64,000 nucleotides of DNA from an uncultured Cohaesibacter sp. Its GTDB lineage: Bacteria; Pseudomonadota; Alphaproteobacteria; Rhizobiales; Cohaesibacteraceae. Below are positions 4,261 to 59,390 of the stretch, piece after piece. A program made the position numbers and the translations under genes. Under the pieces are notes generated by a model. The model saw only the letters and a program-made list of their open reading frames with translations. It ran no database searches and was not told the DNA's origin. Positions within the stretch are counted from its first letter, which is position 1, and every line of letters starts with the position of its first letter. The stretch is from contig NZ_OY762934.1 of NCBI RefSeq assembly GCF_963667045.1, positions 806,001-870,000 of the forward strand. Reading direction: 5' to 3'.

Positions 4261-4533
4261 TTACCCCTCCCAGTCAAAAAATTCGGCAATGACCACACCG
4301 GTTGCCTGCTCGGGAACCGATGTGAAGCTGATGCAGCCCTCTCCGCCAACGACGAGGTAAAGGTTGAATGTTTCGTGTGAGCTGATCGGCTGCGCTGCGA
4401 CAATGTCGTCGTCCTGACAAAAGGTGAAATGCACCTCAGGCCATCTGTTGCGCAAATGGGCCGCAACCGACTGGTCAAGACCATGCGCAATGACTTCCTC
4501 CTTCACATCATCCAGCAGCGCAGCATCGATCAT
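4261..4533 (-). CDS. small nif-cluster protein, DUF6129-like
   Basis: This is a 90-residue acidic protein (MIDAALLDDVKEEVIAHGLD...FDWEG). Its N-terminal helix, the motif LRNRWPEVHFTFCQDDDI and its place directly after an NafY gene fit the small proteins filed as DUF6129 in other nif clusters; this assignment is from memory. It has one cysteine, so it is unlikely to bind a cluster alone. Its ATG overlaps the nafY stop by four bases (ATGA), indicating translational coupling. Function is unknown; a cofactor-insertion helper is possible. Confidence 0.65.
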   Translation of the reverse strand: MIDAALLDDVKEEVIAHGLDQSVAAHLRNRWPEVHFTFCQDDDIVAAQPISSHETFNLYLVVGGEGCISFTSVPEQATGVVIAEFFDWEG

Positions 4534-5237
4534 TCTTCGATTTCCTCAAGAAAGGGCGTCAATGTTTTCGCTTCCTGTCCCATCACGCGCGCCAGCCACG
4601 GCGGCGGCGAGCCTGCCAGCACCGTCTGCAGATCGGCAACGATGTCGCGGGCCTGTCGCCCGGCAGGCAGCTTGATGGGATGGATACCGGCGCGCACGAC
4701 CTTGGCGGCAGCCGGTCCGCCGATGGAAATCACGTGCAACACATCACAATCGGCGATCAGTGCAGCACGCCACTTGTTCTTGTCTTCCACGTCATCGGGT
4801 TCACTGGCCGAACGGACATCGATGAGCCGCGCTTCGGTTGCGGACACCTGATAGACGAGAAAACGACGGCAGGAGCCGAAATGTCCGTCCAGCTCCTCGG
4901 CAGAATTGGAGGCGCAGGCGATGCGGATGGAACCGGGCATGTCACCATCGGCATAGGCATCGAGGGGTAGCGCCTCGACGCTCCCGCTTTCGGTGACACC
5001 ATCGCCCTTGAGGACGCGCAACGCCGCCTTCAGGGCGTCGGCCGGCAGTTTGATGAAGGCTTCCCCTCCGGCCTGCCGAAAGGCTTTCATGCCGAGATTG
5101 GCAAATTTCTCTTCGCTCATCGGCAAGCCGACAGCAGCTCCGAGAATGGAAATCAGTGCCCCGGCATCAATACCGGGCAAGTCGTTTGCCGCAAGGCCAA
5201 TGCGCAAGGCCAGCTCGCGCGACAGAGGAGCATTCAT
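4530..5237 (-). CDS. nafY: NafY/NifY-type dinitrogenase accessory factor
   Basis: This 235-residue protein has two parts. An N-terminal helical domain (residues 1 to about 95, ELALRIGLAANDLPGIDAGAL) resembles the NafY N-terminal domain. The C-terminal NifX-like cofactor-binding domain starts near residue 100 with IRIACASNSAEELDGHFGSC. The HFGSCRRFLVYQV stretch is the hallmark of the NifX/NifY/NafY family. Such proteins hold apo-dinitrogenase open and bind FeMo-co before insertion. It lies between a ferredoxin and the DUF6129-like gene. The two-domain length separates it from the nifX at the window start. Confidence 0.8.
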   Translation of the reverse strand: MNAPLSRELALRIGLAANDLPGIDAGALISILGAAVGLPMSEEKFANLGMKAFRQAGGEAFIKLPADALKAALRVLKGDGVTESGSVEALPLDAYADGDMPGSIRIACASNSAEELDGHFGSCRRFLVYQVSATEARLIDVRSASEPDDVEDKNKWRAALIADCDVLHVISIGGPAAAKVVRAGIHPIKLPAGRQARDIVADLQTVLAGSPPPWLARVMGQEAKTLTPFLEEIEE

Positions 5238-10446: not shown

Positions 10447-10502
10447 GGGTCCAAAATTTCTTTTTTCCATTCAATTCAAACAGTTAATGATAATTCGACA
10501 CT

Positions 10503-10518
10503 TGGTTTGGTTCTTGCT
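10503..10518 (+). promoter_or_regulatory. probable sigma54 promoter of the SIR2-like/hemerythrin operon
   Basis: TGGTTTGGTTCTTGCT keeps the invariant GG-N10-GC and the TTGCT of the -12 element but has TTT in place of CAC in the -24 element. It lies 51 bases before the ATG at 10569, downstream of a perfect NifA box. Confidence 0.65.
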
Positions 10519-10568
10519 TGTTCTCTTGCTTCAGATTTCATCGGCAAAACAGAACGGCAGGCATAGTT

Positions 10569-11432
10569 ATGACCAAGGCACTCATCGACCAGATCGTGAA
10601 GAAAGTCGGCACCGGCGACGTCGTCCCCTATCTTGGCCCCGGCGTTCTGTTTGACGTCGTCAACAAGCAGAGCGGTGTGCCAATGCCCGCAGACAGTGAC
10701 AGCCTGATCCTTGCCATGAACAAGGGCCGCCCAATGGCCCCCAAGCTGATGTATGAATTCTCCCGCGCAGCCATGAATCTGGAGCTCAAGCGCGGGCGTC
10801 GCTTCATCGAGCAGATCCTGACAAATCTCTACAAGCAGGAGCAATGGAGCCGCGCAGCCCTGCATGACTGGATCAGAGACGTCGCCCCGCCCTATGTCAT
10901 CGACATCAACCGGGACCTGCAGCTGCAACAGAGCTTTGCCGACGCACCCCATTATCTGGTGCGCGGCATCGCCCGGATCGGCGGAACGAACAATCGCTTC
11001 ATCATTCACCGCCATGACGGCACGGGCTACCAGCCGATCGAGCCGGAAGCCCTCACATCAGATCTGCCGATCCTCTTCAAGCCGCTTGGGTCACCAGAAC
11101 CGCAACCGACCTATATCGCCTCGGATGCCGACTTTGTCGATTATCTCACCGAACTGATGGGCGGGTTTGGTGTGCCGCCCTTCCTCAAGAGCTACCGACA
11201 GGGAAAGCAATATCTGTTTCTGGGAATGCGCTTCACGCGCGATACAGAACGGATGGTGATGTCTGATGTCACATTTGGCGCAGGCGAGTCATCCGGCTGG
11301 GCACTGATCAAGGAACCAACGGACAAAGAACGCCGCTATTGCAAGAAAAAGGCAATTGAAATCATGGAACTGGATGTAACAGACTTTCTTGAGGCGGCAG
11401 GTATTCCCGTATCTGTTCACTGTGTGGTATAG
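10569..11432 (+). CDS. SIR2-like domain protein, NifA-controlled
   Basis: This 287-residue protein starts MTKALIDQIVKKVGTGDVVP, with YLGPGV near residue 21 in the position of the nucleotide-binding glycine loop of SIR2_2-type domains. Later PPYVIDINRDLQLQQ fits the second conserved block. Such proteins recur beside nif genes, but their role is not established. It could bind or cleave NAD or act as a regulator. The start at 10569 lies after the putative -12 element; the longer reading frame from 10518 would begin before the transcription start. The next gene, a bacteriohemerythrin, begins 33 bases downstream. No signal peptide or membrane segment is seen. Confidence 0.72.
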   Translation: MTKALIDQIVKKVGTGDVVPYLGPGVLFDVVNKQSGVPMPADSDSLILAMNKGRPMAPKLMYEFSRAAMNLELKRGRRFIEQILTNLYKQEQWSRAALHDWIRDVAPPYVIDINRDLQLQQSFADAPHYLVRGIARIGGTNNRFIIHRHDGTGYQPIEPEALTSDLPILFKPLGSPEPQPTYIASDADFVDYLTELMGGFGVPPFLKSYRQGKQYLFLGMRFTRDTERMVMSDVTFGAGESSGWALIKEPTDKERRYCKKKAIEIMELDVTDFLEAAGIPVSVHCVV

Positions 11433-13301: not shown

Positions 13302-14570
13302 TCAGAGTGAGGCAAAGTCGATGACCTTCGGCTTTGCCTTACCAGCCAGCAGCTCGGCAATCGACTGGCCATAGTCGCGGCAGTCGTCCAGCTCCTGTTC
13401 TGTGGGTTGAAACTTGATGCGCTTGCCCTTTTCCGGAACGCGCAACTTGAGGCCACGCAGCCGATCCTCGATCATCGGCACGGCTTCGCCAGACCAGCCA
13501 TAGGAGCCAAAGGCGGCCCCGACCTTACCGCGGGTCTCGATGGCAACCAGCGAGGCGAGCAGGTCCCAGATAGGTTTGACCGCATCGCCGTTGATGGTGG
13601 GCGAACCGAAGATCACGCCATCGGCCTCTTCGATGAGATCGACGAAGGGGTCCACTTCTCCGCCCTGAAGGTCATAGAGGGAAACGCGCACCCCTTCGAC
13701 GGCACTTGCGCCTTCATAGACGGACCGGGCCATGTCGGCCGTGGCGCCGTAGGCGCTCATGTAGAAGATCAGCAGGCTCTTTTCCTTGCCCGCAACCTCG
13801 TTGGGCAAGTGCGAGCCGGAAAGCAACCGATAGCTTCTGATGTAGTCCATCGGCCGATGACGCAGGATCGGGCCATGCGAAGGCGCAATCATCAGCGGAG
13901 CCAGCGGCTCGAGCTTGTCCATGGCAGACAGCACCCATTTCTTGAACGGACGCATGATGTGCTTGAAATAATATTCAAAGGAAAAGCGGAAGTCGCCGAC
14001 CAGATCATTGTAGAACCGCCCGTCGCAGAAATGGGCGCCGAACACATCGCAGGAAAAGAGGATCCGCTCTTCGACCAGAAAAGTGCATTTGGTCTCGGGC
14101 CAGTGTAGATAGGGCGTATGGACGAAGCGGAGTGTCCTGCCGCCGAGATCGAGCTGATCCCCATCATCGGTAAGAGTGTAGCTATAGCTTTCCAGCGCAT
14201 CCTTGAGGGTTGCCTGCAACAGTTTGAGACCACGTTGGGAAACATAGATGTGGGCCTGTGGCGCGCGACGCATCAGCTCCGGCAGGGCACCGACGTGGTC
14301 AAGCTCAAGGTGATTGAGCACGACGGCTCTGATCCGGTCATAGCTTGTCACCGCCTCCAGTCGAGCGAAAAACTGGTTTGAAAATTCCTCCTTCACCGTG
14401 TCGATGATGGCGACCCCCTCAGCCCCTTCGACCAGATAGGCATTGTAGGTGGTGCCGTTCGCCGTCTTCAGGATCAGATCAAAGGTGCGCAGATCCGGAT
14501 CGAACGCGCCGATCCAATGCACGCCGGGGGCAATTTCCTCTGCCGGTTTGGACGCAAGCTGCGCAGTCAT
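13302..14570 (-). CDS. fprA: flavodiiron protein (oxygen/NO reductase)
   Basis: This 422-residue protein joins a metallo-beta-lactamase-like di-iron domain (residues 1-250) to a C-terminal flavodoxin domain (about 260-400). The di-iron motif is NHLELDHVGALPE (H-x-E-x-D-H), with further ligands in HTPYLHWPETKCTF and FSCDVFGAHFC. The FMN-binding loop is YMSAYGATADM. Such enzymes reduce O2 to water or NO to N2O without generating radicals. In R. capsulatus a homologue is encoded in the nif region. The ATG at 14570, 5 bases after the ferredoxin stop, gives the normal length; an upstream extension would overlap that ferredoxin. Confidence 0.92.
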   Translation of the reverse strand: MTAQLASKPAEEIAPGVHWIGAFDPDLRTFDLILKTANGTTYNAYLVEGAEGVAIIDTVKEEFSNQFFARLEAVTSYDRIRAVVLNHLELDHVGALPELMRRAPQAHIYVSQRGLKLLQATLKDALESYSYTLTDDGDQLDLGGRTLRFVHTPYLHWPETKCTFLVEERILFSCDVFGAHFCDGRFYNDLVGDFRFSFEYYFKHIMRPFKKWVLSAMDKLEPLAPLMIAPSHGPILRHRPMDYIRSYRLLSGSHLPNEVAGKEKSLLIFYMSAYGATADMARSVYEGASAVEGVRVSLYDLQGGEVDPFVDLIEEADGVIFGSPTINGDAVKPIWDLLASLVAIETRGKVGAAFGSYGWSGEAVPMIEDRLRGLKLRVPEKGKRIKFQPTEQELDDCRDYGQSIAELLAGKAKPKVIDFASL

Positions 14571-14574
14571 GACC

Positions 14575-14850
14575 TTACAAGATCCCCTGTGCGACGAGTT
14601 CGGCGATGCGCTGGGGCGGAATGCCGGTAAGGCTTCCGGGAGGATTGGCGGCCTCTCCGAATTCATTGAGAATGGCTCCCTCTACCGGGCAGATGCTGGC
14701 GCACTGGGCAACGGCAAAGTCGCCTTCACACTGGGTACAGTCGCTGGCGGCTATCACGAATGTCCGGGCACCGGCGCTGATGGCATCCGACGGGCAGACA
14801 TCCATGCAGGCGTGGCAATTGACGCAGAGGCTGGTGATTTCATAGCTCAT
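14575..14850 (-). CDS. fdxN: 2[4Fe-4S] ferredoxin downstream of nifB (FdxN-like)
   Basis: This 91-residue ferredoxin has clusters bound by CVNCHACMDVCP and CTQCEGDFAVAQCASICP. A 4Fe-4S ferredoxin directly after nifB is the common alphaproteobacterial arrangement, and FdxN supplies electrons to nitrogenase or to NifB. The ATG at 14850 follows AAGGGACC; the longer frame from 14943 would run into nifB. The C-terminal 25 residues (PPGSLTGIPPQRIAELVAQG) extend beyond the cluster domain. It lies 16 bases after nifB and 4 before the flavodiiron start. Confidence 0.88.
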   Translation of the reverse strand: MSYEITSLCVNCHACMDVCPSDAISAGARTFVIAASDCTQCEGDFAVAQCASICPVEGAILNEFGEAANPPGSLTGIPPQRIAELVAQGIL

Positions 14851-14866
14851 GGTCTGGTCCCTTTCT

Positions 14867-16441
14867 TCAGGCACTGGCGGTCTGTTGGCCGGAGCGCGCG
14901 GACTGGTTCCTGTCGAGTGCGCCCGAGGCATGAAGTTCGGCATAGACCGCCATCAGGGCAGGAACGATCGGCTTGTCCGCATGCTCACCATTGGGAATGA
15001 TGCCGGCGGCCTCGAGCTGGTCCCATGGCTTGAAACCGACCTTGGAACACAGCACCACTTCGCAGCCCTTGAGCATGTCAATGGTTTCGGGAAGCGCCGC
15101 ATCACCATCGCCACAATGCACGGGGCCGGTGCAATATTGGGCTGTCTTGCGATGACCGATCAGGCGGGCACCGGCTGGCGAGACCTCATAGATCATGAAC
15201 TCCCGCGCCGAGCCGAAATGCTGATTGATCAGCCCCTGCCCGTTGCTGGCAACTGCCATCAGCACCGGTCGCAAGCCCACTGGCAGGCCCGTCTCCTGCA
15301 ACCGACCAGCAGCAACCGCCGGAGCAGGCTGCGTCAGGCCATTGACTGTAAACAGGGTCTTGCCATTGGCCGCTTTCATCTGTTCCTTGAGAGTTTCCAG
15401 CCGCACCTGCTGTTGTGCCCGCTTCGCTTCAATGTCCGCCTGCACTCTGGCGCGCGTTTCCATGGCGGCGGCATAGTCCACATCGAGGGCATCAATCTTT
15501 GCGAGGGTAAATTCCTCGCCCCGATCCTCGCCCAGCAATCCGACGGCATCAGCGCGGCACTGGCGGCAGTGGCTCATCATGTTCATGTCACCGCAGGCAT
15601 CCTGAAGCTCGGTCAGTTCCTGCTGGGTCGGGGCCCGCTGTCCCATGACACCGTAATAGGTGCCGTGTTCCGGCTCGGTGATCAGCGGCATGACATTGTG
15701 CAGGAAGGCCCCCTTGGCCTTGATCACGCGACTGACTTCCTTGAGATGCTCATCATTGACACCGGGAATGAGCACCGAGTTGACCTTGACCAGCACGCCG
15801 CGCTCAATGAGCATTTCAAGCCCCTTCTGTTGGCGCTCAATGAGGTTCTTCGCTGCCTTGACGCCCCGCATGCGGCGGTTGTTCCAATAGATCCATGGAT
15901 AGATCCGTGCGCCGATCTCCGGATCCACAGCGTTGATGGTGATGGTCACATGGTCGACGTTATACAGCATCAGCTCATCGACGCAGTCTGGCAGCGACAA
16001 GCCATTGGTCGAGACGCAGAGTTTGATGTCGGAGGCCTGCTCGGAGAGCATCCGGAAGGTTTCGAAAGTGCGGGCCGGATTGGCCAGCGGGTCACCGGGA
16101 CCGGCAACGCCAAGCACCGTCATCTGGGGGATGGAAGCGGCAACGGCCAGAGTCTTGCGCACGGCCTGCTCCGGCGTCAGAAGTTCGGAGACAACACCGG
16201 GGCGGCTCTCGTTGGCGCAGTCATATTTGCGATTGCAATAGTTGCACTGGATGTTGCAGGCCGGGGCGACGGCCACATGCATGCGGGCATAGTGGTGATG
16301 CGCCTCTTCGGAATAGCAAGGATGGTTCCTGACACGATCCCGGATGGCATCGGGCAACTGATCGACATGATCCTTCGAGCTGCCACAGGAAACTTGTGTG
16401 CATCCGGCTGATGCTTCGGCCTTGATTGTTCCGTCCGGCAT
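14867..16441 (-). CDS. nifB: NifB, radical SAM FeMo-cofactor precursor synthase
   Basis: NifB fuses iron-sulfur clusters and inserts the central carbide to make NifB-co. The 524-residue protein has the radical SAM motif ACNIQCNYCN (Cys62, Cys66, Cys69) and the NifB signature HPCYSEEAHHHYARMHVAV. A C-terminal NifX-like domain carries INQHFGSAREFMIYEV. I place the start at 16441 (MPDGTIKAEA) because the -12 element of its promoter is at 16487, which puts transcription near 16475; the ATG at 16483 is therefore upstream of the mRNA. AAAGGA precedes 16441. It heads nifB-fdxN-fprA-fdx-fdx-nifQ. Confidence 0.95.
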   Translation of the reverse strand: MPDGTIKAEASAGCTQVSCGSSKDHVDQLPDAIRDRVRNHPCYSEEAHHHYARMHVAVAPACNIQCNYCNRKYDCANESRPGVVSELLTPEQAVRKTLAVAASIPQMTVLGVAGPGDPLANPARTFETFRMLSEQASDIKLCVSTNGLSLPDCVDELMLYNVDHVTITINAVDPEIGARIYPWIYWNNRRMRGVKAAKNLIERQQKGLEMLIERGVLVKVNSVLIPGVNDEHLKEVSRVIKAKGAFLHNVMPLITEPEHGTYYGVMGQRAPTQQELTELQDACGDMNMMSHCRQCRADAVGLLGEDRGEEFTLAKIDALDVDYAAAMETRARVQADIEAKRAQQQVRLETLKEQMKAANGKTLFTVNGLTQPAPAVAAGRLQETGLPVGLRPVLMAVASNGQGLINQHFGSAREFMIYEVSPAGARLIGHRKTAQYCTGPVHCGDGDAALPETIDMLKGCEVVLCSKVGFKPWDQLEAAGIIPNGEHADKPIVPALMAVYAELHASGALDRNQSARSGQQTASA

Positions 16442-16485
16442 GGTGCCCCGATCCTTTCTTCCGCATTGGTCCATGAGAACCATTT

Positions 16486-16714: not shown

Positions 16715-18355
16715 TCAGATGCGCCTGACCGAGATGCCGAGTATCTTGATGCGATAGGCGATCTGGCGCGGCGTCATGTCGAGCAGCCGAGCCGCCTTTG
16801 CCTGCACCCATCCGGCTTCTTCCAGCGCGGCGATGACCCGTTCCCGTTCGTCGAGGGTTTCATCCTGCCAGGCGTTGTCCCCAGCCGGTTCTTCGGCAGA
16901 GGCAGACGGGATCTTGAGGATCGGCGGCAAAGGCTGGGCCGGAACGCCGACCAAGGTCTTTTCCGGCAGACCGGAAAGGGAAACCACGTCCCGGTCGATC
17001 ACGCCGTCCGGGCTCATGACGGAGGCGCGTTCGAGGCAGTTTTCCAGCTCACGCACGTTGCCCGGCCAGTTGTGGCGCATGAGCAGACGCACGGCGCTGT
17101 CCTTGAGGATGAGGGTGCGGCCCTGTTGCTGGCCGATCTTGCCGATCAGAAAGCGACCGAGCTCGGGGATGTCGTCCATGCGCTCGCGCAGTGATGGCAT
17201 GTTGATGGCCATGACATTGAGGCGATAGTAGAGATCCTCTCTGAAAGTTCCCGCTTCCACCGCAGCTTCCAGATCCTTGTTGGTGGCTGCGATGATGCGC
17301 ACATCGACCTTGAGGGTCTTGTTGCCGCCAACACGTTCGAACTCGCCTTCCTGCAACACCCGCAACAGCTTGGACTGGAAGGCGGGTGTGATTTCGCCGA
17401 TTTCATCGAGAAACAGCGTCCCGCCGTCGGCCTGCTCGAAGCGCCCCTTGCGCAGGGAAACAGCACCGGTGAAGGCCCCTTTCTCATGGCCGAACAGTTC
17501 CGATTCCAGAAGGTTGTCCGGCAGCGCTGCGCAGTTGAGTTTGAGATAGGGTGCGGTAGCACGCGGCGAGTTATAGTGAATGGCGTTGGCGATCAACTCC
17601 TTGCCGGTGCCGCTTTCGCCTCGGATCAGAACTGTGGTGTTCCATTTGGCCACCATGCGCACCTGATCGAACACCAGCCGCATGGCATCGGTTTCACCAA
17701 TGATATTCTCGAAGCCGTGCTGGCGCTTGACCCGACGACGCAGGCTGTCGCGTTCTTCGCGCAGCTTGTCCTGTTCTTCCTGAACGGCCTTGGACAACAG
17801 GATGGCCTGCCCGATCAGCGAGGCGATCATCTGCATCAGCTTGGCATTGTCTTCCAGAAACTTGTCGGCAAAGAAAGGCTGAGCGGCAAAGACCCCCACC
17901 GGTTCGTTGGAGCCCAGAAAGATCGGTGCGCCGATGAAAGGCCGGTTCGGATCATAGACGCCAAGGCGATCCAGAAAGCGCGGTTCCTCGGCGATGCGCG
18001 GCACCACGATGAGCCTCCTCTCGCTGAGGATGGCACCAACAATCCCCTCTCCGGGCATGTAGCTGACATTCTTGGTGAAGGCCGCTTCATCCTGATGAAT
18101 ATCGATGATCCGCAGCAAACCGCTGTCATTGTCAAGCAGGCAGATCATGCCATAGAGCAGCCGGCCTTCCTCATGCAGCAGACGCAGAACCTCTCTGGCT
18201 GTGTCGTGCAGATCCAGTGAACGGCCAAGCAACTGGCTGACTTTGTAAAGGGTTTCCAGTTCGCGGCGATAAAAAGAACAGAAAACGGGCTTGGGACACA
18301 AGCCCTCATCGTGTTTGATAACTTCATCCGACGTCGTTGGACACTGAATGCTCAT
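16715..18355 (-). CDS. nifA: NifA, sigma54-dependent activator of nif genes
   Basis: The 546-residue NifA has an N-terminal GAF domain (about 45-190) and a central AAA+ domain (about 215-450) with Walker A GESGTGKE, the sigma54 loop EKGAFTGA and DEIGEI. A C-terminal Fis-type helix-turn-helix (AKAARLLDMTPRQIAYRI) follows. The linker between AAA+ and HTH (LPEKTLVGVPAQPLPPILKI and onwards) has no cysteine, whereas the oxygen-sensitive NifA of rhizobia and Rhodobacter carries a Cys pair there. That fits the NifL-controlled class and agrees with the upstream nifL-like gene, 25 bases away in the same operon. Confidence 0.95.
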   Translation of the reverse strand: MSIQCPTTSDEVIKHDEGLCPKPVFCSFYRRELETLYKVSQLLGRSLDLHDTAREVLRLLHEEGRLLYGMICLLDNDSGLLRIIDIHQDEAAFTKNVSYMPGEGIVGAILSERRLIVVPRIAEEPRFLDRLGVYDPNRPFIGAPIFLGSNEPVGVFAAQPFFADKFLEDNAKLMQMIASLIGQAILLSKAVQEEQDKLREERDSLRRRVKRQHGFENIIGETDAMRLVFDQVRMVAKWNTTVLIRGESGTGKELIANAIHYNSPRATAPYLKLNCAALPDNLLESELFGHEKGAFTGAVSLRKGRFEQADGGTLFLDEIGEITPAFQSKLLRVLQEGEFERVGGNKTLKVDVRIIAATNKDLEAAVEAGTFREDLYYRLNVMAINMPSLRERMDDIPELGRFLIGKIGQQQGRTLILKDSAVRLLMRHNWPGNVRELENCLERASVMSPDGVIDRDVVSLSGLPEKTLVGVPAQPLPPILKIPSASAEEPAGDNAWQDETLDERERVIAALEEAGWVQAKAARLLDMTPRQIAYRIKILGISVRRI

Positions 18356-18380: not shown

Positions 18381-19220
18381 CTAACAGGCTGGCAAACTGA
18401 CGCATATGTTGGACCCGCGTACGTTGCTCTCGCGGATTTCAATATCGCCATGCAAGTCAGCCACAATCTGCCGGGCGATGGCCAATCCCAAACCGGCATG
18501 GTGCGGACCGGAGTGCCAGGCAGTGTAGAATGGCTCGAAGACCTTGGTTCGGGCGGCCCGGTCAATGCCGGGACCGGAATCCTGAATGCAGACTTCAACC
18601 ATTCTGTCGGCACCAACGCGCGATATGACGCCGACCGAGCGAGCGGTAGCGCCATTCTCCCCTATGGCGTTGATGGCATTATCGAGCAATATCCGGAGCA
18701 TGACGCGGATCGTGATTTCATCACTGTAGATCATCGGCAGTTCCGGACTGGCGCGCCAATCCACTTCGATGCCGTTGGCATCAATGCGGTCGGCAGAAAT
18801 GATGAGACAATCCCTTATCGCCTCGTTGATGTTGATGGGAACGTGCGCGGCCATCCTGTCTTCTGGCAGCGACAGGCGCAGAGTACGGGCAGCCTCGTGG
18901 CCAAACTCAAGCGCCTCGTCCAGCGCTCCGCCCATGGGCAGACAGCCCGGCGTTTCCGATGACTTCGGACCACAGGCCGCGCGCTGCAGATTGTTGGACA
19001 GGGCCGTCATGACATTGAGCGGCTTTTGCAACAGATAGAGCGCCCCGTCGATCACTTCACGGGTGCGATACTCCATCTCCGATTCCGCCATCCGCGCCCG
19101 GACCGCATTGAGGCGGGCCTTTTCATATTCCTGCTTCTGGAACTCGACCAGTTGGCAGTGCGATGCGCATTCTACGGTGTAGAGCGGGGCATGGGTGCGT
19201 TTGGCAAGCTGTTCTGTCAT
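18381..19220 (-). CDS. nifL: NifL-like protein lacking PAS domains
   Basis: The 279-residue protein is a GHKL ATPase of the NifL type. It has a short N-terminal linker with CASHC, a helical H-like region (residues 30-80: MAESEMEYRTREVIDGALY, LLQKPLNVM) without the phospho-acceptor histidine of true kinases, and the nucleotide-binding boxes ILLDNAINAI (N, 177-186), DSGPGID (G1, 214-220), FEPFYTAW and HAGLGLAIARQI (G2). Classical NifL has about 520 residues, with two PAS domains, the first binding FAD; both are absent. The open frame continues upstream to 19499 but contains the promoter there. The start (19220 or 19238) is uncertain, as neither has a good ribosome-binding site. Confidence 0.7.
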   Translation of the reverse strand: MTEQLAKRTHAPLYTVECASHCQLVEFQKQEYEKARLNAVRARMAESEMEYRTREVIDGALYLLQKPLNVMTALSNNLQRAACGPKSSETPGCLPMGGALDEALEFGHEAARTLRLSLPEDRMAAHVPININEAIRDCLIISADRIDANGIEVDWRASPELPMIYSDEITIRVMLRILLDNAINAIGENGATARSVGVISRVGADRMVEVCIQDSGPGIDRAARTKVFEPFYTAWHSGPHHAGLGLAIARQIVADLHGDIEIRESNVRGSNICVSLPAC

Positions 19221-19261
19221 GGCGGTGTGTCGCTTCATTGTCAAATCGATGAAAATGACTG

Positions 19262-19278
19262 ATGCAACTTGCGTGCCG
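19262..19278 (-). promoter_or_regulatory. sigma54 (-24/-12) promoter of nifL-nifA
   Basis: On the minus strand it reads CGGCACGCAAGTTGCATC, a perfect GGCAC-N5-TTGC with GG-N10-GC. With the NifA box 43 bases upstream it implies that NifA activates its own operon. Confidence 0.9.
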
Positions 19279-19319
19279 AATGAAAGGACGCGGATTTTGG
19301 CCAGTTTGCCGTGTCCTGT

Positions 19320-19335
19320 TGTCGCATTTCCGACA
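19320..19335. promoter_or_regulatory. NifA upstream activator site between nifL and rnfA
   Basis: TGTCG-CATTTC-CGACA is a perfect extended box. It lies 43 bases from the -24 element of nifL and 136 bases from that of rnfA, so one site may serve both divergent promoters. Confidence 0.86.
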
Positions 19336-19470
19336 AAAGACGAACCGACCCGCGCAATATTGTAGCAAATGCCCCTCAAGTGACCGCCCCCATGGCCTGC
19401 CGCACAAAAGGCGGCCGAGTACGCAGAATTCAGCCCCCTTGCCCCGACTGCACCGGAAAGTAGCCCCGCT

Positions 19471-19486
19471 TGGCACGGTTGATGCA
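19471..19486 (+). promoter_or_regulatory. sigma54 (-24/-12) promoter of the rnf operon
   Basis: TGGCACGGTTGATGCA has a perfect -24 element, GG-N10-GC spacing and TGC at -12. It is 48 bases upstream of the rnfA ATG. Confidence 0.88.
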
Positions 19487-19533
19487 ACCAGGCTGGCAAG
19501 ACCTTCTTTCAATCAGGCGAACGGATTGCCTTC

Positions 19534-20115
19534 ATGGAACATACGCTGCTGATCCTTCTTGAGACCGCCCTTGTCAACAATGTGGTGCTGGTCAAGTTTC
19601 TGGGTCTATGTCCTTTCATGGGCGTGTCGAACAAGCTGTCGTCGGCGCTGGGCATGGGCTTTGCCACAACCTTCGTGCTGACCCTTGCAGCCACCGCCGC
19701 CTGGGTGGTCGAGCGGTTTCTGCTGGAGCCGCTGGGGCTCCAGTATCTGCGCATCCTGACGCTCATCCTGCTCATTGCCGCCATTGTCCAGTTCACGGAA
19801 ATGGCGATCCGCAAGTTCTCACCGGTGCTGCATCAGCGGCTTGGCATCTTCCTGCCACTGATCACGACCAACTGCGCCGTGTTGGGCGTGGCGCTGCTGA
19901 ACATTCAGGAAGACCACACCTTCTATGAAAGCGTGCTGTTCGGGCTGGGCTCGGCGCTCGGCTTCTCGCTGGTGCTGGTTCTCTTCTCTGGGCTCAGGGA
20001 ACGGATCAAGCTGGCGGAGGTTCCCGCTCTCTTCAAGGGCACGCCGATTGCCTTTCTCACCGCCGGGTTTCTGTCCCTGTCCTTCATGGGATTTGCCGGG
20101 CTGGTTTCCCACTAG
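19534..20115 (+). CDS. rnfA: RnfA, membrane subunit of the Rnf complex
   Basis: This 193-residue protein has six hydrophobic segments and the conserved [18 protein letters not shown] and [18 protein letters not shown] loops. The cysteines in these two loops bind the membrane 2Fe-2S cluster shared with RnfE. Rnf couples ion-motive force to electron flow between NADH and ferredoxin; in Rhodobacter it drives ferredoxin reduction for nitrogenase. It is first of seven genes, behind a NifA/sigma54 promoter divergent from nifL. Confidence 0.97.
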
Positions 20116-20165
20116 CCGCAAGGCCTGCATTCGCAACGGACGACACGCAACAAGAGGATTTTGAC

Positions 20166-20702
20166 ATGTTGGCAGCAATGGGTGCTCTTCTGGCTTTGGG
20201 GGTGCTTCTGGGCGGCGGTCTCGGGCTGGCTGCGCATTACCTGCGGGTTGAAGGCAACCCGATCGCCGGGGAAATCGAGGAGCTTTTGCCGGGGTCCAAC
20301 TGCGGTCAATGCGGCTTCCTTGGCTGTTCAGATGCTGCCAACGCGCTGGCCGAGCACAGCGCCAGTGTGACCCTGTGCCCGCCCGGCGGCAAGACGCTGG
20401 CTGCGGCGCTGGCGGAAAAGCTAGGGGTTGAGGCCGATCTGTCCGCCATGAAGGACACCGGGCCGATGATCGCCTTTGTCTTCGAAGACCTCTGCATCGG
20501 TTGCACCAAATGCGCCAAGCGCTGCCCGACGGATGCCATCGTCGGAGCTTCCAAACAGATTCACGGTGTTGTCGATGACGCCTGCACCGGTTGCGAGAAT
20601 TGCGCCGAGGTCTGTCCGACCGGTGCCATCACCATGCGCAAGGAAACCGCGACCATCCAAACCTGGCACTGGCCGAAACCAGAACTTTCTCTGGCAAGTT
20701 GA
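20166..20702 (+). CDS. rnfB: RnfB, iron-sulfur subunit of the Rnf complex
   Basis: This 178-residue protein has one N-terminal membrane helix (LAAMGALLALGVLLGGGLGL). A 4Fe-4S site follows at GSNCGQCGFLGCSDAANA with a further Cys in TLCPPGG, then two ferredoxin-type clusters (CIGCTKCAKRCP, CTGCENCAEVCP). RnfB is the point where soluble ferredoxin exchanges electrons with the complex. GAGGATTTTGAC lies before the ATG. It is shorter than the longest RnfB proteins, with only two C-terminal clusters, as is usual in proteobacteria. Confidence 0.96.
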   Translation: MLAAMGALLALGVLLGGGLGLAAHYLRVEGNPIAGEIEELLPGSNCGQCGFLGCSDAANALAEHSASVTLCPPGGKTLAAALAEKLGVEADLSAMKDTGPMIAFVFEDLCIGCTKCAKRCPTDAIVGASKQIHGVVDDACTGCENCAEVCPTGAITMRKETATIQTWHWPKPELSLAS

Positions 20703-20714
20703 TGGATTGACCCA

Positions 20715-22271
20715 ATGAGACTATTCAAGATCAAAGGGGGCATTCACCCCGACGGGCGCAAGGAACTGGCCGAGAATGAGAAGATCGAACAGATTCCCCT
20801 GCCGACCCTGATGCGCATCCCCCTCAAGCAGCACACCGGCACTCCCGCCAATCCGATCGTCGAAAAAGGCGATGCCGTAAAAAAGGGACAGGTGCTGGCG
20901 CTTTCCCGCGGGTCGGTATCGGCCACCATCCATGCCCCAACCTCCGGGCGGATCATCGCCATCGGGCGCTTTGTTGCGCCACATGCCTCGGGCCTGCCAG
21001 AACCGACCATCACGCTCAGGCCTGATGGCAAGGACGAATGGGGCGACCTGCCACCTCCCCTCGATCCGTTTGCAACCGAACCGGACGAGATTGCCCGCCG
21101 TGTGGCCGAAGCCGGTGTCGTGGGCCTTGGCGGCGCGGCCTTCCCGGCGGCCGTCAAACTCAACCTGCGCACCCGCGGACCGCTGCATACGCTGGTGATC
21201 AATGCGGCCGAGTGCGAACCATACATCACCTGCGATGATCGCCTGATGCGTGAGCGGGCAGCAGAAATTCTCGACGGTGTCGCCATCATCTGTCACACCA
21301 TCGGTGTCACCAAGGCGTTGATCGGTGTGGAGAAAAACAAGCCGGATGCCATCAAGGCGCTCAAAAAGGAAGCGCAGGCGCAGAACCGCTATGACATCAA
21401 GGTCGTGGAGGTGCCGACCCGCTACCCGACCGGCTTTGCCAAGCATCTGGTGCAGATCCTCATCGGACAGGAGGTTCCGGCGCGGGCGCTGACCGCCGAC
21501 GTTGGCGTGATCGTGCAGAATGTTGCCACCACCTATGCCATCCAGCAGGCCGTCAGGCTCGGTCGGCCACTCATTTCCCGCATCGTGACCGTCAGCGGCG
21601 AGATGATCCGGCGCAAGGGCAATTTCGAGGTGCCGATCGGCACCCCGATCTCTCACATCATCGAGCATTGCGGCGGCTTCATCGATGAACCGGAAAAGCT
21701 GCTGCTGGGTGGTTCGATGATGGGCGATCCGGTTTCCAGCACCCGCGCGCCGGTCGTCAAGGGCTCCAATGGCATTCTGGCGCTGGGACGCAAGGAGACC
21801 TCGCAAAAGCCGGTCATGCCCTGCATTCGCTGCACTTGCTGTGTTGCCGCCTGCCCCTGCGGGTTGATGCCCTATGAAATGGCCGCTCGCATCAAGGCGG
21901 ATGATCTCGAGAGCGCTGTTGATATTGGCCTCAGAGATTGCATCGCCTGCGGCTCCTGCTCCTTTGTCTGCCCGGCCAATATTCCGCTGGTGCAGTATTT
22001 CAACTATGCCAAGGGCAGCCTCACCGCCAAGCAGCGCGCCGCCCACAAGCTGGAGGAGACCAAGCGACTGGTGCAGTTCCACGACGCGCGCATGGAGAAG
22101 ATCAAGAAGGAAAAACAGGCTGCAATGGCGCGCATGAAGGCAGAACGGGAAGCCAGAAAGCGCAAGGAGGAACAGGAGGAGGCAACCATGGGACCTGAGG
22201 GTGTGGCCGGAGTTGTGACAGAGGATGTCACCTCCGAGCCGGACCATCACAAAGCAAGGGCGAAAGCATGA
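20715..22271 (+). CDS. rnfC: RnfC, NADH-binding subunit of the Rnf complex
   Basis: This 518-residue protein has an N-terminal barrel-like part (IPLKQHTGTPANPIVEKGD), the flavin/NADH-binding glycine region GVVGLGGAAFPAAVKL (about 130-145), a SLBB-type segment and two 4Fe-4S clusters (CIRCTCCVAACPCGLMP near 370; CIACGSCSFVCPANIP near 410). A charged, coiled-coil-like lysine/glutamate tail follows (KIKKEKQAAMARMKAERE). The longer, alanine-rich tails of enteric RnfC are absent. It starts 12 bases after rnfB and overlaps rnfD by four bases. Confidence 0.97.
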   Translation: MRLFKIKGGIHPDGRKELAENEKIEQIPLPTLMRIPLKQHTGTPANPIVEKGDAVKKGQVLALSRGSVSATIHAPTSGRIIAIGRFVAPHASGLPEPTITLRPDGKDEWGDLPPPLDPFATEPDEIARRVAEAGVVGLGGAAFPAAVKLNLRTRGPLHTLVINAAECEPYITCDDRLMRERAAEILDGVAIICHTIGVTKALIGVEKNKPDAIKALKKEAQAQNRYDIKVVEVPTRYPTGFAKHLVQILIGQEVPARALTADVGVIVQNVATTYAIQQAVRLGRPLISRIVTVSGEMIRRKGNFEVPIGTPISHIIEHCGGFIDEPEKLLLGGSMMGDPVSSTRAPVVKGSNGILALGRKETSQKPVMPCIRCTCCVAACPCGLMPYEMAARIKADDLESAVDIGLRDCIACGSCSFVCPANIPLVQYFNYAKGSLTAKQRAAHKLEETKRLVQFHDARMEKIKKEKQAAMARMKAEREARKRKEEQEEATMGPEGVAGVVTEDVTSEPDHHKARAKA

Positions 22272-23359
22272 GTGACGTCAACATCACAGCCGGACCATTT
22301 TCCCACTCTGGTGCCAGTGTTTCCCGCACCATGGGGCTCGTCATGGTGGCGCTGCTGCCCTCCACCCTGTTCGGCTTTATCCAGTTTGGCTGGCCCTCGA
22401 TCTATCTGTTTCTGGTTACGGTGGCGGCGGCCCTCATCGCTGAGGCTCTGTGTCTCAAGATGGCGGGCAAACCGGTGAAACTCCATCTGCTCGATGGCTC
22501 GGGCATCCTGACCGGCTGGCTGTTGGCCATGACCCTGCCACCGTGGGCGCCCTGGTGGATCGGAGCCGTTGGCTCTTTGATTGCCATCATGCTGGCCAAG
22601 CAGGCCTTTGGCGGCCTTGGGCAGAATGTCTTCAACCCGGCGATGGTGGCCCGTACGGTGCTGCTCATTTCCTTCCCCATCCAGATGACCCAGTTTCTCG
22701 GGCCGCAGCCGATCTATAGCGGTGCCGCCCCCGATTTCATTGGTGGACTGGCAATCACCTTCGGCAGCCATCCGGAGATTGACGCCATCACCAGCGCTTC
22801 GCTGCTCGGCACGATCAAGACCGAGCTCGGCCGTGGCGAGGTGCTGCAACAGATCCTTGCCCAATCGTTCGACCTCAGGAACATGGTCATTGGCTTTGCT
22901 CCGGGCTCGATGGGCGAAACGTCAGCCATTCTGGCACTGATCGGCGGCCTGTTCCTGCTGACCACCCGCGTCATCACCTGGCACATTCCCGTGGCGATGA
23001 TCGGGGCCATGTGCGCCCTCTCCGGCCTTGCCCATTTTCTCGATCCTGCCCACTTTGCCAGCCCGCTGGTGCATCTGGTCTCGGGCACCTTCGCCTTTGC
23101 GGTGTTTTTCATCGCAACCGACTATGTCACGGCCCCCGGCTCGCCTCTTGGCAAGATCATTTTCGGGGCGGGCGTCGGCATTCTGACCTTCATCATCCGC
23201 ACATGGGCGGCCTATCCGGAGGGGGTTGCCTTTGCGATCCTCCTGATGAACGCCACGGTGCCTCTGATCGATACCTATATCAAGCCGCGCATCTATGGCC
23301 GGACACGCAAGGGTGACCCGATCAAGCTCAAGGAAACCAGCAAGGGAGAGGCACGATGA
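22268..23359 (+). CDS. rnfD: RnfD, flavin-carrying membrane subunit of the Rnf complex
   Basis: This 363-residue membrane protein of the NqrB/RnfD family has about ten hydrophobic segments and the conserved LLDGSGILTGWLLAMTLPP and NVFNPAMVARTVLLISFP. The site of covalent FMN attachment is normally D-x-(T/S)-G-A-T; here it reads DAITSASLL (Asp172, Ser178), so the accepting Thr is replaced by Ser. Flavin transferase ApbE is reported to tolerate Ser, so function is likely retained. It overlaps rnfC and rnfG by four bases each. Confidence 0.95.
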   Translation: MSDVNITAGPFSHSGASVSRTMGLVMVALLPSTLFGFIQFGWPSIYLFLVTVAAALIAEALCLKMAGKPVKLHLLDGSGILTGWLLAMTLPPWAPWWIGAVGSLIAIMLAKQAFGGLGQNVFNPAMVARTVLLISFPIQMTQFLGPQPIYSGAAPDFIGGLAITFGSHPEIDAITSASLLGTIKTELGRGEVLQQILAQSFDLRNMVIGFAPGSMGETSAILALIGGLFLLTTRVITWHIPVAMIGAMCALSGLAHFLDPAHFASPLVHLVSGTFAFAVFFIATDYVTAPGSPLGKIIFGAGVGILTFIIRTWAAYPEGVAFAILLMNATVPLIDTYIKPRIYGRTRKGDPIKLKETSKGEAR

Positions 23360-24081
23360 GCGGGAGCGAATTGAACGCCGATGCCTTCAAGGCCCCCGAT
23401 GGCCATCCAGACGCTGGAGATACGATTGGCAACAGGATCAAGGCACTCTATCTGAGGTATCACGACAATCCGGCCTATCTGGCAACCGTGCTCGGCGGCT
23501 TCTGCCTGATCTCGGCCCTTATCCTTGCCTCGAGCTACATGGCGACGCTGGCCCCGATTGCCCTGAGGCAAAAGGAAGATCTGCAGTCCTCTCTGGCGCT
23601 GGTCATCCCGGCAAGCCTGCATGACAATGATCTGGTTCGTGACGCCTTTACCATCAAGGACACTCATGGCGCCCGCACTGTCTATCCCGCCTACCGGCAG
23701 GGAACACTGACCGCTGTTGCCTATCAGGTCAGCGCTGTCGGTTATGGCGGGCCGATCCTGTCGATTATCGGTGTGGACCCGAACGGTGCCCTGCTTGGCG
23801 TCGAGGTGTTGCAACACACCGAAACCCCGGGACTTGGCGACCGCATTGAATCCAAGCGCGGCGACTGGATCAAACAGTTTTCAGGGCGCTCGCTTGCTGA
23901 GCCATCCGAGGCCCAGTGGAAGGTCAAGAAGGACGGTGGCTATTTCGACCAGCTGTCCGGGGCAACCATCACCCCGCGCGCCGTGGTGCTTTCGGTGCGC
24001 AGCGGGCTGGAATTCTTCAAGGCCCACAAGGGCGAGATCCTCACCTGCCCCGGCGGTTCATGCAAAGGAAGCCGATCATGA
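23356..24081 (+). CDS. rnfG: RnfG, periplasmic FMN subunit of the Rnf complex
   Basis: This 241-residue protein has a cytoplasmic N-terminus, one membrane helix near residues 43-65 (ATVLGGFCLISALILASSYM) and a periplasmic FMN-binding domain. The flavinylation motif is intact in YFDQLSGATITPRAVV, where the Thr of SGAT accepts FMN. The conserved GYGGPILSIIGVD and ETPGLGDRIE also support the call. The N-terminal 30 residues are longer than usual. It overlaps rnfD and rnfE. Confidence 0.95.
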   Translation: MSGSELNADAFKAPDGHPDAGDTIGNRIKALYLRYHDNPAYLATVLGGFCLISALILASSYMATLAPIALRQKEDLQSSLALVIPASLHDNDLVRDAFTIKDTHGARTVYPAYRQGTLTAVAYQVSAVGYGGPILSIIGVDPNGALLGVEVLQHTETPGLGDRIESKRGDWIKQFSGRSLAEPSEAQWKVKKDGGYFDQLSGATITPRAVVLSVRSGLEFFKAHKGEILTCPGGSCKGSRS

Positions 24082-57327: not shown

Positions 57328-59130
57328 TTAGGAAATGACTTGTGCATCACTGGATAGCGAAAATAGTCCGAGCATTGCCGAACGCAGCTGCACGGGCTGA
57401 ACCGGCTTGTGCACGAGCAGCAGGTTGGCTGCCTTGACCCTTTGCTGAACGTCAGGCGCCAGATCCCCTGAAATGACCAGTGCCTTCAGGCCCCGACCGT
57501 AGCGCTCCTTGGCTTCCCTTACGATTTCAAGACCGGTGTAGCCCTGAGGAAAGGAATAGTCGGAGATGATGAGATCAACCGGCCCTTCGATGAGACGCAT
57601 TTGCTCAAGGCTCTCGGCAGCGCGAATTCGACACCCCCATGTCTGGAGCAGGTTGACAGTCGCTCGACGGGTTTCCTCGTCGTCGTCAACAACAAGCACC
57701 ATTTTCTGATTGAAGAGCGCGCCGATCCGTTCAGATGGACTGGTCGGCTTTTCAATGGTTGCCGACAAAGGCGCACTGACCAGACCGCCGATCTTGATGC
57801 AGGTGCCTGCGGGGCTGGTATCAAGGCTGATCGACAAAGTCTGCAAATCGGCAAGGCGGCGGACAATGGCCAGACCAAGCCCGAGCCCCTTTTCCACGTG
57901 ATCCGAGCCCCCTACGTCCGGCGTCATGCGGTTAGAGCGCTGCTTGATCTGGGTGAATTCTTCAAAGATCACCGATTGATGCTCGACAGGGATTCCGGGA
58001 CCATCATCACAGACGGTAATGCTGACAGCAGAGCCATCCTTATCCACGATGATCCTTGCGAAGCCTCCGCCTGAGTGGCGGATAGCGTTGGACAGCAGAT
58101 TCTGCACCATGCGCCGCACCAATATCGGATCGGCAACCACCCCCACCTTTGGCCCTTCCAGCATCAGGGTGACATGGGCGATTTCGGCCAGCGGCTCATA
58201 ATCGTCAAGCACATGGTTGAGCATATCCTCAAGATCGAAAGCGGTGGGGCGGACCTGAACCTTGCCACTGTCAAGCAGGCTGACATCAAGCAGCGAATTG
58301 AACAGCTTGGAAAGGGTCTGGAGAGAATTGCGGATACGGTTCAGCGTTTCCCGGCTCTTGCTATCCAACTTGCTGAGGGGCAAGGTTTCGATGTGCAGCC
58401 CGATAGCGTGCAGGGGTTGACGCAAATCGTGGCTGGCAGCGGCCAGCAGTCGGGTCTTCTCGCGGTTGGCATGGCGGGCAGCCTCCGCCGCCTCGCGATA
58501 GCGTTGGGCAAGATCAAGATTCTCGTTGCTGATCTCAATATATTGCGCAACGGATTCCAGCACGTCATGGCCAAAGCGCATCATCATCGACAGAAAAATG
58601 AGCACCAGCCCACCCAGCAGGATGAACTCATCGCCGAGCATGAAAAGGCGCAGGGCCAGCAACCCCAAATACGGCACGGCATAAAGGACAAACGAACGTG
58701 GAAACACAGCCAGAGATCGCACGGCCGCGGCCGTGGCACCAGCCGCAATGGACATCTGGATGGCAAAGTGGGCGACATTACCCGGATTGAGGCTGACATA
58801 GGTCATCACGCCCCAACTGACCCCGACCATACAGCTCAGGCAATCCATCAGCCGGATCCAGAGATAGGGCTGTCGCTTCTCCTCGGATACCTGGGTGTAG
58901 CTGCGCCGCCAGACTTCCATCAGCAGCGGGTAGAATATGATCTGCAACACCCCCCATAGCACGAGGAACCAAGTGTAGACATCGGCATTGCTGCTGGCGA
59001 TATAAATCAGAACGCTGGCGCTGGTGATATGCCCGAGGTAGATGGAGTCCGGTGTTTTCAGGAAAACATTGACGTGTTCATGAACAGTGCTCGCAGGAAG
59101 AGGCGCTTTGAAGGCATCAAGAAGGTACAT
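57328..59130 (-). CDS. membrane hybrid histidine kinase
   Basis: The 600-residue protein has about six membrane segments (residues 30-185), an H-box AASHDLRQPLHAIGLHIETL (His234), an ATPase domain with NLLSNAIRHSGGG, DDGPGIP and KGLGLGLAIVRRLADL, and a C-terminal receiver (about 475-590) with DLIISDYSFPQGYTGLEIV. The DLRQPLHA H-box is that of the HWE-unrelated RpfC/LuxQ-like hybrid group. No sensor domain is seen outside the membrane part. The ATG at 59130 is preferred over the GTG at 59139. It faces the LuxR-type regulator with 34 bases between stops. Confidence 0.9.
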   Translation of the reverse strand: MYLLDAFKAPLPASTVHEHVNVFLKTPDSIYLGHITSASVLIYIASSNADVYTWFLVLWGVLQIIFYPLLMEVWRRSYTQVSEEKRQPYLWIRLMDCLSCMVGVSWGVMTYVSLNPGNVAHFAIQMSIAAGATAAAVRSLAVFPRSFVLYAVPYLGLLALRLFMLGDEFILLGGLVLIFLSMMMRFGHDVLESVAQYIEISNENLDLAQRYREAAEAARHANREKTRLLAAASHDLRQPLHAIGLHIETLPLSKLDSKSRETLNRIRNSLQTLSKLFNSLLDVSLLDSGKVQVRPTAFDLEDMLNHVLDDYEPLAEIAHVTLMLEGPKVGVVADPILVRRMVQNLLSNAIRHSGGGFARIIVDKDGSAVSITVCDDGPGIPVEHQSVIFEEFTQIKQRSNRMTPDVGGSDHVEKGLGLGLAIVRRLADLQTLSISLDTSPAGTCIKIGGLVSAPLSATIEKPTSPSERIGALFNQKMVLVVDDDEETRRATVNLLQTWGCRIRAAESLEQMRLIEGPVDLIISDYSFPQGYTGLEIVREAKERYGRGLKALVISGDLAPDVQQRVKAANLLLVHKPVQPVQLRSAMLGLFSLSSDAQVIS

Positions 59131-59390
59131 TTTACTCACTTATATTGACTGATCTGCCTTTACATCGGTTCCCGCTGTTCATTATCTTGCCTGAACACTT
59201 TGGAATATCATATTTGCATATAATTTTCCGCTTTTCCAATTGAATTCATTCCCAAAACACTAGGTAGTTTTACGTTTTATTTCATTGTTTGCCACTTCCT
59301 CATTTTGTCGCTAATCTGGACGATGTCTCTATTGGGGAAGTCTTCGGCAAGGGCTGTCGACGGCGGAGAACCCGACAGCGGGAGCGTTGC

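Follow-up and report, generated by a model that had tools for sequence, protein, structure and literature searches.

A natural NifL without PAS domains, encoded beside a NifL-type NifA in Cohaesibacter

The nif locus and its short nifL gene

The DNA analysed here, a 64 kb stretch referred to throughout as the window, is part of a 5.24 Mb single-contig genome of Cohaesibacter (Alphaproteobacteria, Hyphomicrobiales). Its minus strand bears a nitrogen fixation cluster made up of nifN, nifE, nafY, nifK, nifD, nifH, nifQ, a flavodiiron gene, a ferredoxin gene, nifB, nifA and nifL, with a number of unassigned ORFs interspersed. The nifL gene occupies positions 18381–19220 on that strand (279 codons plus stop, with its ATG at 19220) and is named from its match to TIGR02938, its place in the NifL clade and its dN/dS values. 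On the same strand lie nifA (16715–18355; 671 bits to TIGR01817), nifB (14867–16483; 624 bits to TIGR01290), a 4Fe-4S ferredoxin gene in the fdxN position (14575–14943; Pfam Fer4 models) and the flavodiiron gene (13302–14666), the flavorubredoxin-like product of which exceeds the cut-offs of ODP and Flavodoxin_1 and scores 268 bits against NF008887, below the cut-off of 635. Divergent from nifL on the plus strand is rnfABCDG (19534–24081), where rnfA, rnfB and rnfC are identified by NCBIfam models and rnfD and rnfG are named from their position, their place being conserved by tblastn.

Other features of the cluster deserve a brief description. The NafY-like protein (4533–5237, minus strand) matches DIMCO_N and Nitro_FeMo-Co; NafY is typical of gammaproteobacterial nif clusters. 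Between nifQ and nifH sits a 179-residue ORF (10479–11015, minus strand) with no Pfam match. Of six other alphaproteobacterial stretches, four have a counterpart of it at 39–53% identity, and the remaining two (L071 and L024) end nearby. The flavodiiron gene, between the nif ferredoxin and nifQ, recurs at 74–79% identity in all six further alphaproteobacterial clusters examined. A search at E 1e-6 finds none in four nifLA stretches from other classes; just two of these stretches, L079 and L080, include the nifB–nifQ part. Its product could possibly remove oxygen near nitrogenase. Elsewhere in the window, a 603-residue ORF (57328–59139, minus strand) weakly resembles the C-terminal half of NifL (E 1.8e-4) and is probably a sensor kinase.

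The first-pass annotation had described the product of 18381–19220 as a NifL-like protein that lacks PAS domains and has a complete GHKL ATP site, and profile searches bear out both points. The NCBIfam model TIGR02938 (NifL) matches the 279-residue protein with 181.2 bits (E 2.8e-53) over model positions 250–492 of 494, that is, with its C-terminal half only, and the score, with half of the model missing, stays below the curated equivalog cut-off of 242.45 bits. Pfam places HATPase_c at residues 167–277 (2e-17) and finds no PAS domain, either in the short protein or in the frame read from the farthest start, at 19499. Both PAS1, which binds FAD, and PAS2, which relays the signal, are features of the A. 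vinelandii-type NifL, and both are missing here. Judged from its sequence, the protein is a NifL by descent and, by architecture, one without the two defining features, PAS1 and PAS2.

A PAS domain left in a second frame upstream, the circumstance that would have undone the first-pass reading, is absent. The PAS half of a full-length relative, run by tblastn against all frames of the 64 kb window, finds nothing better than E 0.48, which rules out a frameshifted or separate PAS domain there; the C-terminal half of the same relative matches 18384–19136 at 1.6e-70. The start codons of the divergent nifL and rnfA genes are 313 bp apart, so that there is no room for a PAS half between them. A longer start within the 375-codon open frame is likewise ruled out, since a conserved sigma54-type element and a NifA-type site sit there, and it is also contradicted by genome G014, whose frame is 286 codons only.

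That sigma54-type −24/−12 element, CGGCACG-N4-TTGCA at 19263–19278 (minus strand), lies 56–59 bp before the ATG in all 12 Cohaesibacter genomes with the gene, and 56–57 bp before the nifL ATG in three of three full-length relatives, in each case with one or two mismatches. The NifA-type upstream activator site, TGT-N10-ACA at 19320–19335, is found 113–125 bp before the ATG in the same 12 genomes, and two such sites occur in each of the three full-length relatives. The conservation of both before the ATG establishes the short start and rules out a hidden or frameshifted N-terminus. Together, the two motifs arise at a rate of 5e-5 in 20,000 two-base-block shuffles of the upstream stretch of genome G000. 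A further sigma54-type −24/−12 element precedes the divergent rnf operon (19471–19486, plus strand), and in all 12 Cohaesibacter it lies 250–266 bp away from the ATG of nifL and carries one or two mismatches. A single NifA-type site lies between the divergent nifLA and rnf (window 19221–19533) in all 12 Cohaesibacter with the gene. An FNR-type box upstream of nifL (TTGAT-N4-ATCAA, up to two mismatches) was seen in two of 15 genomes, in different places, with no conserved site.

Domain anatomy and conserved residues

The AlphaFold2 model (mean pLDDT 76.5 from an input of 19 sequences; an input of 13 rows gave a poor 63.6) predicts a long helix over residues 14–82 (18975–19181, minus strand), spanning the linker and the first helix of the dimerisation (H/DHp) region, then a second helix at 96–116 and a GHKL fold from residue 127. 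The pLDDT is below 50 at residues 1–14, 88–93 and 224–243 and about 50 up to residue 20. The GHKL nucleotide-binding domain, delimited by HATPase_c, the invariant motifs and this model, covers residues 127–278 (18387–18842, minus strand). Its nucleotide-binding motif residues N181, D214, G216, G218, G243 and G245 are invariant in 19 of 19 alignment rows; the Klebsiella-like L033, which stands outside that alignment, gives no HATPase_c match. For the window protein, phmmer puts A. vinelandii NifL (9qq6 chain A) first among PDB sequences (E 7.2e-37), the H/DHp and GHKL regions aligning over residues 29–277, and the best fold among 350,542 PDB chains is A. vinelandii NifL in the NifL–NifA complex (Foldseek E 1.8e-16, TM 0.73 by query length).

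In the alignment with 9qq6 chain A, Tyr62 and Leu63 (codons at 19032–19037, minus strand) take the positions of A. vinelandii His305 and Arg306. The phospho-acceptor His of the H box is therefore absent, as had been remarked from the sequence at the outset, but so it is from most NifLs: among 24 aligned rows, only A. vinelandii and L032 have His at this position, and the other 22 have Tyr, Phe or Val. On this alignment, its absence is ordinary for NifL and not special to the short form. The position of Arg306 is occupied by Leu in 13 of 13 PAS-less proteins, by Gln in all 10 other PAS-bearing NifLs (three of the order and seven of other classes of the phylum, with PAS presence checked) and by Arg in A. 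vinelandii. In addition, the Gly of LQGP is replaced by Lys in 11 and by Ala in two of the 13 short forms. Given these replacements at the Arg306 and LQGP positions, signal handling may differ from that of A. vinelandii; because all 13 Leu-bearing forms fall in one clade, however, the Leu counts as one event and is a correlate only.

The sequence CASHC at residues 18–22 (codons at 19155–19169, minus strand), where the first-pass annotation had imagined redox input arriving through another protein, is indeed present, with C18 and C22 close to where the long helix begins. Both cysteines belong to ECAxxCQL, whose residues E17, C18, A19, C22, Q23 and L24 are the same in all 12 Cohaesibacter, although most positions from 2 to 16 vary. 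From the short NifL of BM303 (L013), ECAxxCQL is absent, and both cysteines are missing.

Descent, selection and the NifA partner

Strong profile matches (E at most 2.8e-87) occur in 16 of 397 genomes of the order. Thirteen of these carry the short form: 12 Cohaesibacter, out of 18 genomes in that genus, and BM303 (G033), a MAG from a different family. The other three (G812, G845 and G834) have open frames of 565–600 residues. BM303 calls for caution, since just 23 bases separate the start of its gene from a contig edge; an in-frame stop occupies bases 8–10. The NifLs of the congeneric G006 and G009 are 98% and 88% identical to that of the window. In a set of 25 genomes, nifA, nifH and NifL are found together in 16 and are all absent from the other nine, among them G004, a genome of just 64% completeness. 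Nine more genomes of the order match weakly (1.3e-27 to 5.8e-23); seven of these matches were placed in the tree described below, outside NifL, and those of G886 and G1020 were left out of it. At E 1e-40 the family model finds one of 385 genomes of the class and 30 of 398 genomes of the phylum, seven of them over the cut-off. Of the 22 phylum matches with E below 1e-40 that stay under the cut-off (L034–L055), the 14 put in the tree were rejected as NifL, all of them falling outside the NifL clade. In viral contigs one stretch fitted a pattern and none encodes a relative, a protein search of the plasmid collection gave as its best match a Methylococcus NifL at 33%, and PHROGs returned kinase-like and unnamed families only.

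Whether the protein might fall outside the NifL clade was settled by a tree inferred by maximum likelihood from the shared C-terminal region, with 46 rows comprising 22 NifLs and 24 other sensor kinases (NifL_L033, Klebsiella-like on inspection and with a degenerate GHKL, was left out, and HKa_L019, with no profile match, was dropped). The NifL rows split from the 24 kinases with 100/100 support, and the window protein is among them. The 13 short forms make up one clade inside NifL (100/98), to which the three full-length alphaproteobacterial NifLs, themselves a clade (98/91), are sister; the joint clade has 100/99 support. These full-length proteins, from G834 (L024), G845 (L071) and G812 (L072), share 44–45% identity with the short form over the common part, and their loci have the same rnf-nifL-nifA-nifB-fdxN-flavodiiron order, promoter kind and NifA-type sites as Cohaesibacter. 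They differ from it in having kept PAS1 and PAS2, with two PAS stretches each; the seven NifLs of the phylum that belong to other classes have PAS as well. G834 NifL aligns with A. vinelandii NifL over residues 76–571 (E 2.2e-108) and, as the one checked, keeps Ser39, Glu70, Asn102, Tyr110 and His133, which are given as FAD contacts of the A. vinelandii protein (PMC12540587). With full-length, two-PAS sisters in the same order, the same gene order and the FAD-contact residues kept in G834, the loss of PAS is derived and the short form secondary. Tree, PAS content and gene order show a single loss of both PAS1 and PAS2, in the lineage of Cohaesibacter and BM303.

The gene has not decayed since. 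By a Nei–Gojobori count, dN/dS is 0.02–0.10 in seven pairs of near species, which indicates that the gene is under purifying selection and functional; the distant pair G000–G016 gives 0.21, with synonymous sites near saturation. Such ratios, and the occurrence of the gene in 12 genomes of the genus, rule out a pseudogene.

The partner has the Pfam architecture GAF-AAA+-HTH, and its closest PDB chain is A. vinelandii NifA (9qq6_C, E 3.4e-185); a nifL–nifA pair is common to A. vinelandii and Cohaesibacter. A NifA over the TIGR01817 cut-off is encoded directly downstream of nifL in all 13 short-form loci. The claim that its linker lacks cysteines stands, and extends to the whole group: the linker CX4C is found in none of the 13 short-form partners and none of the three full-length partners (0 of 16 together), as against 30 of 30 NifL-less NifAs examined, these being the best-scoring of 53 in the order. 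The C-X11-C ... C-X4-C pattern of oxygen-sensitive alphaproteobacterial NifA, at the AAA+ end and in the linker, is absent from the window NifA. In a NifA tree, the 16 alphaproteobacterial NifL-associated sequences group with seven NifL-linked sequences from other classes (100/100, with the meeting of long branches flagged), away from the 30 canonical NifAs of the order, and so this tree tells the same story as NifL descent. In earlier work, Cohaesibacter nitrogenase has already been placed in a cluster with Gammaproteobacteria (PMC8399215), and an alphaproteobacterial NifA, that of Martelella endophytica, is listed among NifL-regulated NifAs (PMC8219145). Glu356 of NifA was considered as a marker of NifL partnership and rejected: it is Glu in 16 of 16 NifL-associated NifAs and also in the four of four NifL-less NifAs that fit the pattern (26 of 30 did not fit), and so is not diagnostic. 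By these sequence comparisons the partner is a NifA of the NifL-dependent type, and neither classical oxygen sensor, the FAD-PAS NifL or the linker-cysteine NifA, is present.

A probable nitrogen and energy brake, weighed against other readings

We consider it probable (about 0.7) that the short protein is a natural PAS-less NifL acting as an anti-activator, which would grip NifA through its DHp–GHKL half and report only ADP/ATP and PII status. Underlying this reading are descent from NifL, loss of the N-terminal half, intact GHKL motifs, purifying selection, an adjoining NifL-type NifA, and the NifA-type site and sigma54-type element ahead of nifLA, all established by sequence, phylogeny and synteny; from these we infer binding and inhibition of NifA and a response to ADP and PII.

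In A. vinelandii, NifL(143–519) with a small linker deletion keeps the response to fixed nitrogen and loses that to oxygen, PII acts on the GHKL domain (PMC3466315), NifL 147–519 still forms a complex with NifA without redox sensing, and ADP on the GHKL domain stabilises the NifL–NifA complex (PMC9866876); the C-terminal domain of K. pneumoniae NifL alone is also said there to form a stable complex. The suggestion made at first pass, that ADP/ATP and GlnK might be sensed through the GHKL domain, agrees with these published properties of PAS1-less A. vinelandii NifL (PMC3466315, PMC9866876). The laboratory truncations remove PAS1 and retain PAS2, whereas the natural short form is without PAS2 as well; compared with A. 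vinelandii NifL, whose PAS1 is known as PDB 2gj3, it lacks both PAS1-FAD and PAS2 and has Tyr for His305 and Leu for Arg306. In the 2:2 complex of A. vinelandii, it is the DHp/GHKL part of the NifL dimer that touches the AAA+ domain of NifA (PMC12998174).

By analogy with that complex, the short NifL would dimerise and hold on to the AAA+ domain of NifA. ADP would tighten the grip, as would unmodified PII when nitrogen is plentiful, and 2-oxoglutarate, acting at the GAF domain of NifA, would loosen it. Two or more PII genes are present in 16 of 16 genomes; a Pfam search for DraT gave no match anywhere, controls included, and is uninformative. The two motifs ahead of nifLA, one of NifA type and one of sigma54 type, hint at a positive loop, in which NifA itself would switch on nifLA and the short NifL would serve as a nitrogen and energy brake; the nifLA of A. 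vinelandii, on the other hand, is reportedly without NifA autoactivation (PMC8219145). The prediction is a brake on NifA that follows nitrogen and energy status and receives no redox signal from a flavin. There would be no oxygen response through FAD, and oxygen control would sit elsewhere: in transcription, in respiration, in the removal of oxygen or in the cysteines of Cohaesibacter. The flavodiiron gene is a suggestive neighbour for respiratory or enzymatic removal of oxygen.

The ADP/ATP–PII brake gives no role to ECAxxCQL, invariant though it is, and it is here that a rival account begins. A thiol or metal switch might have replaced PAS-FAD, with C18 and C22 (CX3C) forming disulfides, or holding a metal or cluster between the two subunits, and so conveying oxygen or redox state. 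The invariance of ECAxxCQL next to mostly variable residues 2–16, the four-residue spacing of the cysteines along a predicted long helix, and a NifA whose lack of linker cysteines leads one to expect some other oxygen input all speak for such a switch. We nonetheless think it unlikely: both cysteines are missing from the PAS-less BM303 protein, the full-length G845 NifL already has Cys at the C22 position (in an ungapped comparison by eye), so that C22 may be inherited, and in the PAS-less ArcB of Haemophilus a cysteine-independent, apparently metabolic signal accompanied the loss of PAS (PMC11620690). Similarly doubtful is the fuller proposal that the CX3C at the head of the dimerisation helix is a new oxygen/redox sensor that gates the grip on NifA, with Leu63 tuning the helix. 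Leu63 could also be read as the mark of a brake locked on, a protein that inhibits at all times, lets go only when NifA has bound 2-oxoglutarate, and sets the threshold of the positive nifLA loop. Leu in every PAS-less protein, against Gln in 10 and Arg in one of the 11 PAS-bearing NifLs, fits this idea, as does the constitutively inhibitory R306C form of A. vinelandii NifL (PMC9866876); one of the papers cited in PMC3466315 describes this arginine in its title as crucial for switching. Yet thirteen sequences of one clade amount to a single evolutionary event, Gln is usual at this position in the other aligned NifLs and Arg therefore not general, and the conserved ATP-site motifs argue for continued nucleotide control, which together leave the locked-on brake at what we would call long odds.

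Redox input could instead come in trans from a separate PAS protein, and nine places in the genome do match the PAS half of NifL at E up to 0.001. None of the nine is within the window, and of the two looked at, the best lies in a 980-residue open frame and the other, a small PAS protein, adjoins a chemoreceptor gene; we regard this source as very improbable. That an ordinary histidine kinase should stand beside nifA by chance is scarcely credible, for all that the GHKL domain has complete ATP motifs, given Tyr at the position of the H-box His, the place of the protein inside the NifL clade, and family searches that turned up no receiver-domain protein in the neighbouring ORFs they covered. 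The preferred reading, a brake answering to ADP/ATP and PII, has a possible parallel in the ArcB of Pasteurellaceae, a natural ortholog without the redox-sensing PAS that seems to answer another signal (PMC11620690); unlike the short NifL, ArcB is a sensor kinase from an unrelated pathway, but it is a precedent for the loss of PAS together with a change of signal.

We found no report of a natural PAS-less NifL, or of NifL in Cohaesibacter, in a search mostly without subscription papers that is weak evidence of absence. NifL homologs in Alphaproteobacteria have already been stated to exist in PMC9866876, whereas the introduction of PMC4999443 holds NifL to be absent from that class; the NifLs of Cohaesibacter, L071, L072 and L024 add to the evidence against such an absence. 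Proteobacterial nif control is usually described with two solutions to the problem of oxygen, a FAD-NifL or a linker-cysteine NifA. Cohaesibacter has neither, and nonetheless keeps a NifL under purifying selection. As a natural version of the laboratory PAS deletions, the short NifL suggests that a cell profits from the GHKL/DHp half by itself, which would separate the nitrogen and energy function of NifL from its oxygen function. It makes the site of oxygen control in Cohaesibacter directly testable, and it is a small candidate oxygen-blind nitrogen brake for the engineering of nif control.
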